24,562 nucleotides of DNA from a virus. The position numbers were made by a program, and so were the translations under genes. Every line of letters starts with the position of its first letter. Position 1 is the first letter of the stretch. The notes beneath the pieces are model-generated. The model saw only the letters and a program-made list of their open reading frames with translations. It was not told the DNA's origin and searched no databases. Positions 4,776 through 19,365 of the stretch are shown here, one piece after another. The stretch is taken from the IMG/VR virus record IMGVR_UViG_3300009610_000088, positions 1-24,562 of that record; one strand, 5' to 3'.

Positions 4776-5495
4776 ATGCCCAAGCGGAAAATTGTGAGCG
4801 ACGTTGACGCCTACGACCGCATGCCTGCGGCACAGTTCACCGCGCCGCCGCTTAAGCCCAAGCGGAAGAAGCTGAATCCACGCCAGCGCAAGCGCCTTCG
4901 CCAACAGTTAAAGGTGGTTCCCGACCAGTGGTACAAGCGCTACATGAACCACCTCCGCTCCCAGAAGTGGCGGCTGTTCAAGGTCAACATCCTCGCCGAG
5001 CGGGGTACGATGTGCGAACGCTGCGGGAAATTCGGTAAGCAACTGGAGCTACACCACATCAACTATGCGAGGATGGGCCACGAATTACCCGAGGACGTGA
5101 AGCTCTATTGCAGAGACTGTCACACCGACATGCACCGGCACCGGTCGTGGAAGGGCCGAGGCAAAAAACTAATTACGGAGAAGCACATGGCAGAAGAGAC
5201 TCCGAAATCCCCGGAAAATTCCGGTGAAGCGAAAGAGCATCTGCACGAGTGGGAGAACCTGGAACCGGGCAAGTGGCGATGCACCATCTGCCAGATAGAG
5301 GGCATCGGCCCGGTGAAGTACGTGTCGAAGTGCTTGGTCTGCGGGTATCCGGCCGCCCTGCACCTCGGCGGCCCCGACGACCACGGCTACCCCTACGTGC
5401 ACGTCACGCTCGAGGACGTGGAGCTTTGGAGAAAAGCGGGCGACTCCGAGCAGGCGATCATGTCGCGCATCGCAGCAAGGGGCATGGCCGAATGA
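4776..5495 (+). CDS. HNH endonuclease with C-terminal zinc ribbon
   Basis: A 239-residue protein. The N-terminus is very basic (PLKPKRKKLNPRQRKRLRQQ), suited to DNA contact, followed by YMNHLRSQKWR. The HNH core reads C80-x2-C83, LHH (His 93 and 94) with N96, and C112-x2-C115-H116 with H120; the Cys pairs form the structural zinc site. The second half is separate: a linker of Glu, Pro and Ser, then a zinc ribbon with C169-x2-C172 and C186-x2-C189 plus HLGGPDDHG. An in-frame ATG at 5187 (Met 138) has GGAG 6 nt upstream, so the zinc-ribbon half may also be made alone. HNH enzymes cut DNA in homing or packaging; no intron or split gene is evident here. The stop overlaps the next start (ATGA). 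Confidence 0.8.
   Translation: MPKRKIVSDVDAYDRMPAAQFTAPPLKPKRKKLNPRQRKRLRQQLKVVPDQWYKRYMNHLRSQKWRLFKVNILAERGTMCERCGKFGKQLELHHINYARMGHELPEDVKLYCRDCHTDMHRHRSWKGRGKKLITEKHMAEETPKSPENSGEAKEHLHEWENLEPGKWRCTICQIEGIGPVKYVSKCLVCGYPAALHLGGPDDHGYPYVHVTLEDVELWRKAGDSEQAIMSRIAARGMAE
5175..5189 (+). promoter_or_regulatory. Internal ribosome binding site and ATG within the HNH gene
   Basis: GGAG at 5177-5180 lies 6 nt before an in-frame ATG at 5187, exactly at the border between the HNH half and the zinc-ribbon half. It could drive a separate product of about 102 residues. Confidence 0.4.
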
Positions 5496-15505: not shown

Positions 15506-15511
15506 CTCCTT
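15506..15511 (-). promoter_or_regulatory. Ribosome binding site AAGGAG
   Basis: AAGGAG on the minus strand, 6 nt before the ATG at 15499. It overlaps the stop codon of the upstream gene (15510-15512), so translation of the two genes is probably coupled. Confidence 0.7.
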
Positions 15512-16412
15512 ACCCGAAGAAGTTGCTGGTGCCGCCAGGAGGTGTGCCTACCGTGGTGCCAGTCGGTACGATCGGCGGAGTCCCGGCGGTGGTTCCCTGT
15601 TTACGCATCTGCTCGATGATCTGCAGCAAAGCCGGAATACTCAGCCCGGCGCCGATGATGGCTGACGCCGTACTCGGCTGCGGCACCTTCACCTCTGACA
15701 CCGCCTCGGCCCCGAACGGCTGACGGATCAGGTTGCCATAATTCAGCAGATTCTCATACGGTAACCGCTGCTCATACTCGTACCGGTTGGCATTCTCGTT
15801 CCGCTGCGCTTCCTCCTGCGCCCGGATCTGCGCGCCCACCGCGCCCGTGATCTGCCCCGGCGCCGTGAGATTCGCCTGCAACTGCGGGATGTTCTGCATC
15901 GTCTGCATCGCCTGCTGCTGAGCAGACAGATAGCCCTGGTTCGCCAAACCAGACGACACTTCTCCCGCCACGCGCTCGGCATCGCGCACCGCCTGCGCCT
16001 CCCCGATCGACTGCCTCGAGCCGCCATAGCCGCCGCTGGCAATCCCCTGGTGCCGGATGGCCGGCAGCGCCCGCGTCAGCAACTGATCGCCGATGGGTGC
16101 CACGGCCGCCGAGATCGCATTCTTCAGGTACGGGTTCGTCGCCGGATCCCGCCCCGCTCCGAGGTTGAACTCCGCGCTCTTCGTCCCGAGTTCAGCGAGG
16201 TACTGCGCCGGGGTGGCCGCAGCGCCGGTCTGCCGCAACGCCGAGAGTTCGTCTTGATTAAAATCAGCAACCCGTGGTTCGGGACTCAGCTTCGGTCCAC
16301 CCTGCTGATACAATCGCGTGCTTTCATCAACAAACTGCTTCAATGCCGGTTGTTGGAAGCTTGGGTAGTTAGTCGTTGAGGTTGCGACGTTACCGCCTGC
16401 GGATTTTCCCAT
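15510..16412 (-). CDS. Putative internal virion / DNA ejection protein
   Basis: A 300-residue protein with GAGG 8 nt upstream of its ATG. After a short N-terminus it contains a helical core with a NPYLKNAI segment, a Gly-rich turn RHQGIASGGYGGSRQSIGE, then long Ala/Gln helices (LANQGYLSAQQQAMQTMQ; QEEAQRNENANRYEYEQRLP). The pattern N-P-Y-L ... G-G-x-G-S-R-Q-x-I-x-E ... Y-x2-A is one I know from proteins found next to the tail and internal genes of podovirus-like phages, thought to be ejection proteins. The C-terminus has a hydrophobic helix (TASAIIGAGLSIPALLQII) and a Gly/Thr/Pro tail. It overlaps the end of the GNAT gene by 23 nt. Confidence 0.65.
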   Translation of the reverse strand: MGKSAGGNVATSTTNYPSFQQPALKQFVDESTRLYQQGGPKLSPEPRVADFNQDELSALRQTGAAATPAQYLAELGTKSAEFNLGAGRDPATNPYLKNAISAAVAPIGDQLLTRALPAIRHQGIASGGYGGSRQSIGEAQAVRDAERVAGEVSSGLANQGYLSAQQQAMQTMQNIPQLQANLTAPGQITGAVGAQIRAQEEAQRNENANRYEYEQRLPYENLLNYGNLIRQPFGAEAVSEVKVPQPSTASAIIGAGLSIPALLQIIEQMRKQGTTAGTPPIVPTGTTVGTPPGGTSNFFG

Positions 16413-16911
16413 TATGATTCCTCACTTCCATGATTAAGGTTACGTAAGCAGGTTCAAATCCGAGCGGGGCCAAAAGTCTGGTGAGACCTTTCCTGCCACT
16501 AGCTTCCAATCGCTCACATTGGTTCTCGCGGGCGTAAGCCTCAAGGGCCACGCGAGCGTGACCGCCCCAGTCCCGGAAGGAAATCCCCTGAAGGAGCACG
16601 ATTCGCAAAACCCTCAAACAGGGGTACTCAGTACACTCGGTTAGAATCACACCAAGGAGTTCAGCCCCGTCGCCAGCCAACGCTACCCACACCTGCATTT
16701 TGTCGGCAGCGATGTACGCCTTAATCGAGCTTTCGCTTAACTCTCCGTGGCAATGTTTGAGGGCTTCGGCGAAGTAGGGCGTCAATCTCACGAACACCGC
16801 AGGCTCGATGGCCATCTCTGAATTGAGGCGCGTAACCTGGATTCGCCGGGGGGCCAACTGTTTGGCTATCGGAAGCGGCGAGATTTCTTCCAGAACTTGT
16901 TCAGTATTCAT
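16390..16911 (-). CDS. GNAT-like acetyltransferase-fold protein
   Basis: A 173-residue protein. I choose ATG 16911, because the next residues match the duplicated N-terminus at 17662; the frame extends upstream to 16998 but into the inserted HNH region. The order is: a short leader, AKQLAPRRIQVTRL, a helix with LTPYFAEALKHC, a strand VWVALAGDGAELLGVILTE, a helix GGHARVALEAYARE, the GR-K-GLTRLLAPLGFEP segment and a closing strand. This resembles GNAT-like proteins that phages carry beside their tail genes; the C-terminal GR-x-G-x3-L-x2-L-GF motif is typical. Whether it acetylates anything is unknown. No clear ribosome binding site is present, and a 10-bp inverted repeat lies in its leader. The usual coupling to an upstream gene appears broken by the HNH insertion. 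Confidence 0.65.
   Translation of the reverse strand: MNTEQVLEEISPLPIAKQLAPRRIQVTRLNSEMAIEPAVFVRLTPYFAEALKHCHGELSESSIKAYIAADKMQVWVALAGDGAELLGVILTECTEYPCLRVLRIVLLQGISFRDWGGHARVALEAYARENQCERLEASGRKGLTRLLAPLGFEPAYVTLIMEVRNHNGKIRRR
16803..16866 (-). repeat. Diverged repeat of the GNAT 5' region, copy B
   Basis: This segment aligns without gaps to 17558-17621 (copy A). By eye 47 of 64 positions agree, about 73 percent. Protein-level identity is higher, so the copies are old or came from different phages and are not a fresh target-site duplication. Confidence 0.75.
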
Positions 16912-16923
16912 GGTTAAATGAGT

Positions 16924-16956
16924 GAGCGGATGGATGCGGCAAACACCCATCCGCTC
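16924..16956. other. Perfect 10-bp inverted repeat
   Basis: GAGCGGATGG (16924-16933) and CCATCCGCTC (16947-16956), separated by 13 nt. It lies in the 73-nt space between the divergent starts of the HNH gene (+) and the GNAT gene (-). No T-run follows on either strand, so it is not a plain terminator. It could be an operator, a recognition site or a leftover of the insertion. Confidence 0.8.
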
Positions 16957-16984
16957 GACAGTCAGGAAAGGATGAGTTTCCCGA

Positions 16985-17557
16985 ATGCCTGAAGCCAATT
17001 CTATCTACCGCTACAAGACGGTTGACGATCTTATCGCAAAACACGTCCCCGATAGACAACCGGGCCAATGCTGGCTTTGGGTTGGCGCGACCAGCAAGGG
17101 ATACGGCAGTTGTATCTGGCGATATAAGCCCTACAAGGCGCATCGGCTGGTGTACGAACACCTCGTCGGTGCTATTCCTGAAGGCTTGCAGCTCGATCAC
17201 TTGTGCCGAAACCGCCGGTGCGTAAACCCTGCACACTTGGAACCAGTCACGATGGCGGAGAATATTCGCCGGGGCATAAACTACTGGCGCGAGAGAAAAC
17301 ACTGCTCGAAGGGTCATGCCTATGATGCTGCCAACACCCATATCAACGGATCTGGGGAAAGGGTCTGCCGGGAGTGTAAACGCCAGAGCTATCACTGGCA
17401 GGGCGGGATTTGGAACCGAGACAAAACTCACTGCGTTCACGGCCATGCCCTTGATGCCGCTAACACCTACATCCAAAAAAACGGATCTCGCCACTGCCGG
17501 GAATGTCACCGCCAGTGGGACCGCATCTATCGCGCGAAGAGGAAGCTGACGGCTTAG
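16985..17557 (+). CDS. HNH homing-type endonuclease with two zinc repeats
   Basis: A 190-residue protein on the plus strand, inside a minus-strand operon. It has CWLW (29-32), a middle part with KAHRLVYEHLVG, and the HNH_3-type core LDHLCRNRRCVNPAHLEPVT (D71-H72, C74, C79, N81, H84) followed by EN-x2-RG. Two C-terminal repeats of about 43 residues spacing read HCSKGHAYDAANT ... CRECKR (C107, H111, C128, C131) and HCVHGHALDAANT ... CRECHR (C150, H154, C171, C174), likely zinc-binding DNA contacts. These features are typical of phage homing endonucleases. The gene ends exactly where similarity between two copies of the GNAT N-terminus ends. An AAGGATGAG stretch upstream may be its ribosome binding site. 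No promoter was recognised. Confidence 0.85.
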   Translation: MPEANSIYRYKTVDDLIAKHVPDRQPGQCWLWVGATSKGYGSCIWRYKPYKAHRLVYEHLVGAIPEGLQLDHLCRNRRCVNPAHLEPVTMAENIRRGINYWRERKHCSKGHAYDAANTHINGSGERVCRECKRQSYHWQGGIWNRDKTHCVHGHALDAANTYIQKNGSRHCRECHRQWDRIYRAKRKLTA

Positions 17558-17662
17558 CTCAATCGCCATCTCAGAACTGAGCCGGGTAACTTGCAACTTG
17601 CGCGGGGCAAGCTGCTTGGCGACCACCGGAGCTTCGATGATAGGCGTTTCTTCAAGTGTCAT
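17557..17662 (-). pseudogene. GNAT N-terminal fragment cut off by the HNH gene
   Basis: The reading frame starts with an ATGA overlap with the tail-fibre stop and begins MTLEETPIIEAPVVAKQLAP. The stretch AKQLAPRKLQVTRLSSEMAIE matches residues of the downstream GNAT protein at 18 of 21 positions. Right after MAIE the match ends, at the stop codon of the HNH gene. The frame happens to stay open through the antisense of HNH as far as 16901, but those residues look like a shadow. I read it as the 5' end of a second GNAT-like gene whose remainder was replaced. A short peptide may still be made. Confidence 0.65.
17558..17621 (-). repeat. Diverged repeat of the GNAT 5' region, copy A
   Basis: Partner of the segment at 16803-16866. 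It begins immediately after the HNH stop codon. Together the two copies flank the HNH gene and its leader. Confidence 0.75.
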
Positions 17663-19365
17663 GGTGTAGCCGCCGCCGCTTCAAGTGCCTCGACTTTCGC
17701 CTTCAGTTGTTTGATGGCAAGAATGGCGTGCATTAGGCATTCATGAATGTTGACACCGAGTATTTCGACCTCCTCGGGATCGTCCGGAGAGAGCTTACCA
17801 AGGCTCTTGGATACTGTTCCCGGCAACACCTGTTCAATTTCCTGCGCGATGAAGCTTAGAACGCGCGTCCCTTCGGGCGTACCGGCGAGGCCATTGTAAG
17901 TGGCTTCGATTGGGCGCAACTGAGCGATGATGTCCAGCCCGCCCTGAAGATCTTTCACGTCGCGCTTCACGCGCGCATCTGACGCTATTGTCCAAGCCGA
18001 AGTGGTGGGTTTTGCCGCGCTATCTGTCGATAATTGCAACTGGTAGGCAGGCCCGGCTGTACCGATACCCACATTGCCGGTGCTCTGAATGGTCACAGCA
18101 CGGGTACGAGTCCCGCCAACGTCGAAGCCGTGATTGTAGCCGTCGTAGCGCGTGCCGAAACCACCCTCGGCCCAGAGACGGGAAGCGGTGTCCCAAGCCG
18201 GCGCGGCACTGAAGGGCAAATGGATATAGTTAGTCTGAACCTGCCCCACATTATTCAGGTTGAACGCGGCGCCTTCGATGTTGCTCAGCCAGGGCGTTTG
18301 GGAAGTGCCGGGCGGAGCGGCCCAGGAGGCGTCTTCGCGGAGGTACTTAGTGATCCCAGCGGTGGTGCCGGGAGTAGGCACGGTACCGCCACGACCGGAC
18401 GCGCCGCTGGCGATCATGGGCAGTGCGTTCAAAGTAACATCCGCGGTAAGTGCGCCGCCGCCGGACAGGCCGGTCCCTGCGATCACTTGCCTCGAAGTGG
18501 GCACGCCCGCCGCCGGAGCACCCGTGATTTTGGCATAGGCGAGCGAAGTGATCCAGGCCGGATCGGGATAACTGCCGAGGACCGACACCGCGTTGGTGAC
18601 TTGAGCGGCAGTGTAGTCGCCGCTCGCTGCGATGACAGCCCCGGTCCTGGTGAACACGCTGGTGACGGCACTGGCCGGCAGGGCAGTCCAGGCTCCATCG
18701 CCTCTGAGCCAGTTACTCGCGCTGGGTGTACCTGACCCAAGACGTGCTACTGCGAAGATGCCAGAAGTGGTATCGGCAGCAGCATGAACGTGCGCCGCAG
18801 GCGTGAAAGTAGTAGGTACGCCGGTCAACTTCGAGTAAGCCAGACTCGTGATCCAGCCAGGATTGGCATACGATCCGAGAATGGAGACGGCGTTAGTCAC
18901 TTGCGCGGCCGTGTAATCTCCACTCGCCGCAATGACATCTCCAATGCGCGTGAAGACGCTCGTGACTGCCCCAGCACCACCGCCGCCGGGAATCGTCACC
19001 ACCGTGCGCGTGCCGTCGTCTGTGGCCGTGACGCCTGCGCCCACGAAGTTGAGGATCGTTCTCGTGGTGAGGGCAACGCCTTCGTCCTGGACGATGGTAT
19101 AGCCGCCACCACCTCCTCCGCCACCGCTCATCGCGTGCCACGCGCCGGCGTAATAAACGTAGTACCCGGCCCCCGCTCCCGGGTTCCAGTCAGTGCCATC
19201 GGCGTAGGCTAGCATGCCCTCCCGCGGCTTAGCTGGTGCCACATGCCAGACCTTGTGAATAGAATCGCGGTGCCGGTTGATATCGATCTGCTGGTCCTCG
19301 GCCACGCTCCACAGCATCTTCAGCCCTTCGCGGGTATCGTCGGGGAGCGGCCGGTCTAGTGGCAT
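17659..19365 (-). CDS. Tail fibre with C-terminal S74 intramolecular chaperone
   Basis: A 568-residue fibre protein. The N-terminal part has DTREGLKMLWSVAEDQ and a short DGTDWNPGAG repeat-like segment, then a Gly-rich hinge. Two modules of about 52 residues, 100 residues apart (about 131-181 and 231-282), share AVTSVFTR-G-VIAASGDYTA and AQVTNAVS-LGSY. A LREDASWAAPPG type segment follows, typical of fibre shafts, then GNVGIGT. The C-terminus is a Peptidase_S74 domain: the self-cleavage dyad is S462 and K467 in SDARVKRD, followed by LRPIEATYNG, FIAQEIEQVLP and a helical coiled end. S74 domains help trimers fold and cut themselves off. It probably binds the host surface. The start is 1 nt after the upstream stop. 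Confidence 0.85.
   Translation of the reverse strand: MPLDRPLPDDTREGLKMLWSVAEDQQIDINRHRDSIHKVWHVAPAKPREGMLAYADGTDWNPGAGAGYYVYYAGAWHAMSGGGGGGGGYTIVQDEGVALTTRTILNFVGAGVTATDDGTRTVVTIPGGGGAGAVTSVFTRIGDVIAASGDYTAAQVTNAVSILGSYANPGWITSLAYSKLTGVPTTFTPAAHVHAAADTTSGIFAVARLGSGTPSASNWLRGDGAWTALPASAVTSVFTRTGAVIAASGDYTAAQVTNAVSVLGSYPDPAWITSLAYAKITGAPAAGVPTSRQVIAGTGLSGGGALTADVTLNALPMIASGASGRGGTVPTPGTTAGITKYLREDASWAAPPGTSQTPWLSNIEGAAFNLNNVGQVQTNYIHLPFSAAPAWDTASRLWAEGGFGTRYDGYNHGFDVGGTRTRAVTIQSTGNVGIGTAGPAYQLQLSTDSAAKPTTSAWTIASDARVKRDVKDLQGGLDIIAQLRPIEATYNGLAGTPEGTRVLSFIAQEIEQVLPGTVSKSLGKLSPDDPEEVEILGVNIHECLMHAILAIKQLKAKVEALEAAAATP
18530..18672 (-). repeat. Fibre module repeat, second copy
   Basis: This segment and that at 18830-18972 encode the same module of about 50 residues in the tail fibre. 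The DNA identity by eye is about three quarters, while the protein is clearly more alike, so selection has kept the module. Confidence 0.75.
18830..18972 (-). repeat. Fibre module repeat, first copy
   Basis: Partner of the repeat at 18530-18672. In the protein it is the N-terminal of the two modules, roughly residues 131-181. Confidence 0.75.

Follow-up and report, generated by a model that had tools for sequence, protein, structure and literature searches.

Free-standing HNH homing endonucleases of phages, such as the T4 mob genes and the HNH_3 / phrog_826 family, carry an HNH_3 domain, sit between genes, occur sporadically at orthologous sites and are accompanied by a heterologous flank on one side. 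According to a review of the T4 enzymes (PMC2988022), the free-standing enzymes cut far from their own insertion site and the homing genes run with their neighbours, the one exception being segD, which lies antisense between genes 23 and 24. For ShiLan, an out-of-frame HNH insertion in phage methylases has been described that leaves the host frame open (PMC11855218). Phage nuclease genes also mark boundaries of gene exchange (Barth et al., PMC10448857).

We analysed a 24.6-kb uncultivated virus record (the window, meaning this whole stretch of DNA), whose virion genes lie on the minus strand. Its HNH gene has the domain, the intergenic position, the sporadic distribution and apparently the one-sided heterologous flank of the free-standing enzymes, but it is antisense to the operon, its reverse frame is stop-free and coupled to the neighbouring genes, and the 5' stub of a displaced gene is retained beside it. 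It resembles T4 segD in being a free-standing homing endonuclease gene opposite to its flanking virion genes; segD, however, belongs to the GIY-YIG family, and the available part of PMC2988022 describes no reverse bridge for it. The nearest parallel to such a bridge is the ShiLan insertion, likewise a mobile element across which the host-direction frame is stop-free, so that host translation runs through (PMC11855218). In ShiLan the HNH is in sense orientation and interrupts one gene, which resumes beyond the insert, whereas in the window the HNH is antisense and its open frame closes where an intact following gene begins, 11 nt inside GNAT. HEG-bounded exchange regions similarly carry nuclease genes at exchange boundaries, but the bridge frame and the gene-stub anatomy are features of the window that were not found for those regions in the available part of PMC10448857. 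A literature search that covered few subscription journals returned no paper on antisense bridges. We consider it likely that the locus is a free-standing homing-type HNH cassette, antisense in the tail operon of a group of uncultivated phages, of recombinant origin and spanned by a translated bridge ORF. Such a bridge would be a concrete answer, for backwards insertions, to how selfish endonuclease genes harmlessly enter tight, translationally coupled phage operons.

The upstream neighbour of the cassette is an S74-chaperone tail fibre gene (17659..19365, minus strand; Peptidase_S74, E=3.7e-9), whose stop codon overlaps the start codon of the next frame as ATGA according to the ORF coordinates. 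That start codon opens copy A (17558..17662, minus strand), a 35-codon 5' stub assigned to the recipient GNAT by its position and by an N-terminus like that of the full GNAT in the HNH-less relatives L005 and L014. The HNH_3 endonuclease gene follows on the plus strand (16985..17557, 190 aa; phrog_826, E=5e-55), and beyond it lie copy B, a complete GNAT-fold gene of the donor type (16390..16911, minus strand, 173 aa), and the next operon gene (15510..16412, minus strand, 300 aa), related to phage DNA-ejection proteins (phrog_7477, E=2e-11; phrog_4287, E=9e-7). These coordinates confirm the preliminary description of a plus-strand HNH gene wedged between a copy A stub and a complete copy B gene on the minus strand. 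Five contigs from five metagenomes (L002, L003, L019, L020, L041) are 100% identical over the region, which is thus a real haplotype and no assembly artefact; a DNA search gave no match to it among cultivated phages. A Sigma-70 promoter scan found none. A further HNH gene lies outside the virion operon at 4776-5495 of the plus strand (PF01844, E=5e-5).

Copy A had been described as stopping exactly at the HNH stop codon. Its GNAT homology does end exactly there, at 17555-17557, where the minus strand reads CTA, the reverse of TAG, but the reading frame does not: it continues stop-free along the HNH reverse strand to 16901, overlapping the GNAT start. The resulting bridge ORF (16901..17662, minus strand) comprises the stub, the codon-phase reverse strand of HNH and the leader, 253 codons in all, and through the start codon of the stub it connects the stop of the upstream gene with the start codon of the gene that follows. 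Open codon-phase reverse frames are found in 10/10 tail cassettes. They start on or close to the stop of the preceding gene and run out between -16 and +12 nt from the following start codon, usually with the TGA of an ATGA.

Could this openness be a functionless by-product of codon bias or GC content, with only the recombination being real? Codon-phase reverse frames of GC-rich genes are often open, and with the codon usage of the window's own genes a single HNH gene would be open with a 24-50% chance. In this phase, stops arise only from the sense codons TTA, CTA and TCA, and the window HNH gene contains none of them. Across the ten HNH genes, with the last ten codons set aside, CTA accounts for 0/70 CTN, TCA for 0/25 TCN and TTA for 0/23 TTR codons. 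It is these stop-generating codons alone that are missing: other A-ending fourfold codons make up 18% in the same genes, and A accounts for 51% in two-fold purine pairs. The probability that all 10 frames are open is 1.3e-5 with window codon usage and 8e-9 with the codon usage of GC3-matched HNH homologues, in which antisense-stop codons amount to 54/428 and only 4/24 genes are without them. Codon bias also does not predict that the frame should end at the next start codon. Together with the independent set below, these figures make a mere by-product unlikely.

The independent set comprised 146 HNH homologues from other phages, with neighbours defined by a simple gene caller, the HNH gene forced and the end-point window left unchanged. 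Thirty-two of the 146 were antisense inside an operon, and in 16/32 the codon-phase frame ended at the next start, against 3 and 4 for the other two frames. In these 16 coupled HNHs, antisense-stop codons made up 16/325 Leu/Ser codons where 53 were expected from GC3, an about threefold depletion, compared with 68/303 in the other 16 antisense HNHs and 311/1686 in 89 sense-oriented HNHs (coupled vs other antisense, Fisher 6e-11 with codons treated as independent). At GC3 0.37, L311 has 0/22 such codons vs 7.4 expected, which again speaks against a by-product. Fully open frames were found in 8/16 coupled vs 12/89 sense-oriented HNHs (P=0.002), and the comparison with the other antisense HNHs (3/16) was not significant alone (P=0.14). 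The bridge pattern thus extends beyond this phage group without being universal, since half of the unrelated antisense HNHs are without a bridge and 3/16 coupled HNHs contain 3-5 internal stops. The cultivated Mycobacterium phage JAMaL carries an antisense HNH with 5 reverse stops and no bridge. The cultivated BUCT566 was considered as another antisense case and set aside, since its HNH runs in the sense direction and is coupled through the HNH frame itself.

Eighteen further HNH genes of another type, mostly antisense, occur elsewhere in the phages of the group. This second subfamily (L235-L249) has a helix-turn-helix-like C-terminus with ..WKHIP, and the insert typically abuts the stop codon of the gene upstream directly. 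All 11 of its operon-internal HNHs are open in the reverse frame (11/11), compared with 1/7 at operon boundaries or uncoupled sites, such sites being found, for example, after a terminator-like hairpin in L235, L237 and L241 and at an apparently convergent junction in L236. Open frames distinguish operon-internal from boundary positions with Fisher values of 3.8e-4 (18 second-subfamily HNHs) and 1.9e-5 (all), boundary status having been assigned after the frames had been seen. When the operon-internal antisense HNHs of the phage group are combined (10 + 11), 21/21 are open, although these cassettes are related to each other and two share a right flank. The first reverse-frame stop past the HNH 5' end falls -16..+12 nt from the next start in 20/21 and at exactly +3 in 13/21; the other two frames end in this window in 3/21 and 2/21, none at the exact position.

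A long open frame that is conserved in all cassettes and has plausible starts could also encode a functional overlapping protein under selection. The bridge ORF, however, has no Pfam or PHROG match beyond one marginal hit (E=0.07 in L021), equal openness is found opposite a different HNH subfamily, and A-ending codons without reverse-stop effect are used freely, so that openness rather than sequence seems to be preserved. We regard selection for such a protein as improbable, to about the same degree as a by-product of codon bias. We rather favour, with somewhat better than even confidence, the broader proposal that antisense phage HNHs repeatedly evolved a stop-free bridge ORF coupled to the next gene, together with operon-strand hairpins, as a general way to spare the invaded operon. 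Automatic gene callers can mistake a bridge for a gene, and the simple caller used here did so.

We next turn to the two GNAT 5' ends. The GNAT N-terminus does occur twice, as AKQLAPRKLQVTRLSSEMAIE in copy A and AKQLAPRRIQVTRLNSEMAIE in copy B, with 18/21 identical positions against a maximum of 11 in 500 shuffles; their DNA identity is 47/66, that is 71%, close to the earlier figure of about 73%. Copy B itself had no match in Pfam and NCBIfam searches, and a GNAT search among bacterial genomes returned nothing. GNATs were the only PDB matches of the AlphaFold model of copy B (best E=3.7e-5, TM about 0.55), and the 173-aa product is thus predicted to be a GNAT-fold protein.

Relatives were collected as 22 loci by a search with the next operon gene (15510..16412), to which GNAT and HNH searches added more. 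In the HNH-less L005 and L014, S74 is followed directly by a single full GNAT that starts on the S74 stop with MTIEETPIIEASPVAKQLAPRKLQVTR..., which is the copy A arrangement; the comparison with HNH-less relatives proposed earlier thus returned one GNAT and no tandem genes. L021 and L026 have S74, HNH and GNAT in this order, with the left junction CCCCATGATGGAACTAAGCC and a GNAT that begins MNSEQVLEE..., which is the copy B arrangement. HNH is absent in L004, L005, L011, L014 and L018 and present in L021, L026 and others, a presence/absence pattern at an orthologous site. The core of copy A is 83% identical in DNA to L005, L014 and L018 vs 71% to copy B, and its N-terminal nucleotides match L005 and L014 at 33/39 positions. 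Copy B, in turn, has the MNxEQVLEE N-terminus common to the HNH-bearing L021 and L026 and, just after the core, is 79-81% identical to the HNH-bearing type, the GNAT gene being a mosaic throughout. Since the stub type is that of HNH-less relatives and the copy B type that of HNH-bearing ones, the window appears from these comparisons to be a recombinant of both states, in which an HNH-less-type left side (S74 and 35 GNAT codons) is joined to HNH and a complete HNH-bearing-type GNAT.

The preliminary description had offered two origins. An arrival of HNH with a heterologous flank through gene conversion is supported by the types of the stub and of copy B. The other origin, in which HNH took the place of the body of a tandem GNAT paralog, would account for a pair of GNAT 5' ends with 71% identical DNA, but alleles of different phages span 64-83% identity to copy A, a range that includes this value, every relative examined has one GNAT per locus, and in them the copy-A-type N-terminus invariably heads one full GNAT, at the same place in HNH-less phages; with no locus carrying two GNATs, the tandem-paralog idea falls, and we consider it very improbable. 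HNH_3 proteins are often intron-encoded, but a group I intron or other splicing element is hardly credible here, with HNH on the opposite strand, copy B needing no splicing to be complete and a search of 16200-17900 returning no Rfam match at E<=1.

For the recombinant origin we propose the following scheme. The HNH enzyme would cut or nick the 5' region of the recipient's gene. From the right-hand end, repair would then copy leftwards across HNH, templated by the homologous GNAT that a co-infecting donor supplied, and the left-hand end would be joined without long homology, such that the end of the stub may mark roughly where the break lay. The stub at the insertion point would in this way suggest where the enzyme cuts. 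Operon ribosomes would then translate the bridge ORF, which may keep the downstream gene translationally coupled, open the leader hairpins and prevent Rho-type polarity, so that an operon of overlapping genes could tolerate a backwards insertion. By its choice of synonymous codons the parasite would leave the opposite strand readable and let ribosomes through. The bridge would constitute a second selective layer on HNH codon usage, and this reading predicts which single synonymous HNH changes should harm the phage.

Two hairpins lie between the HNH start and the next gene, at 16912-16984 in the window and also in L021, L026, L010, L009, L015, L006, L017 and L048. Hairpin 1 (16965..16981, to which we assign no strand) has a 5-bp stem, GGAAA..TTTCC, that is invariant in 10 cassettes, and a 7-nt loop (6 nt in a single cassette) that displays the presumed HNH ribosome-binding site, a Shine-Dalgarno sequence. 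Hairpin 2 (16924..16956, minus strand, ~14 bp) is stable as operon-sense RNA just upstream of GNAT. Folding of the window leader gave z=-7.4 on the minus strand vs -1.9 on the plus strand, and the leaders of relatives ranged from -1.8 to -4.8 as operon-sense RNA and from -0.02 to -2.5 as HNH-sense RNA, because G-U wobble pairs form only on the operon strand. Double compensatory changes, a covariation seen among the relatives, were present in 5/18 base pairs of the leader, and the second HNH subfamily has a similar leader layout. A structure in HNH-sense RNA was also considered and dropped, as it showed little consensus; the fold belongs to the operon strand. That the hairpins serve coupling or an antisense control of HNH is speculative; with paired short loops over the HNH ribosome-binding site, operon mRNA might silence HNH by loop-loop pairing. 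The HNH leader pattern, searched in all viral contigs, gave only four chance matches beyond this phage group.

The HNH protein scores above the curated cut-off for HNH_3 (PF13392, E=1.3e-14). Residues D71 H72, N81 and H84 are invariant in 8 aligned proteins and, by the family pattern, would be the catalytic His/Asn/His residues. The protein ends in two C-terminal Cys/His modules. Across the alignment this module occurs in one or two copies, which suggests internal duplication or loss.

Close HNHs lie antisense at four gene junctions of the S74-GNAT interval: S74/95-aa gene (L006, L017), 95-aa/119-aa gene (L009, L015, L048), 119-aa gene/GNAT (L009, L010) and S74/GNAT (window, L021, L026). In L006, a stub of the 95-aa gene (MTYEESAALI) precedes HNH and an intact copy (MTYAESSEL) comes after it, the stub matching the intact gene of the HNH-less L168 and L198 at 27/33 nt vs 23/33 for its own intact copy. 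Two genes (GNAT in the window, the 95-aa gene in L006) thus each show a stub that comes from a different allele, and both stubs lie on the upstream-gene side, as would be expected if the break were repaired by invasion from the right only. With close HNHs at four junctions and the L006 stub coming from a different gene, specific targeting of GNAT by HNH is putative, also in view of the distant cutting by the T4 free-standing enzymes (PMC2988022). Searches via the neighbouring 95-aa and 119-aa genes recovered many HNH-less relatives and no new cassette, 40 larger relatives had no cassette by this profile, and the HNH tree was too poorly resolved to link insertion sites to separate HNH lineages.

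In L009 (3890-3930), one HNH no longer has the stop common to the others and extends into the upstream gene's 3' end, with a C-terminal ..KKASQVKGAC. At the left junctions of L009, L015 and L048 (e.g. L015:4486-4500), ATGACCTATGAGG is similar to the 95-aa gene's 5' end, even though the cassette follows that gene; this left end may be a stub carried from another site. In L040 (G019:C1:6632-7038), HNH is split over several frames and neighbouring genes are frameshifted too, and this is probably a low-quality contig. The conserved 95-aa protein (MTYxES...DSIMIEA), for which PHROG gave no clear match, is encoded between fibre and tail genes in L018 (4880-5164) and in about 100 viral contigs of uncultivated phages.
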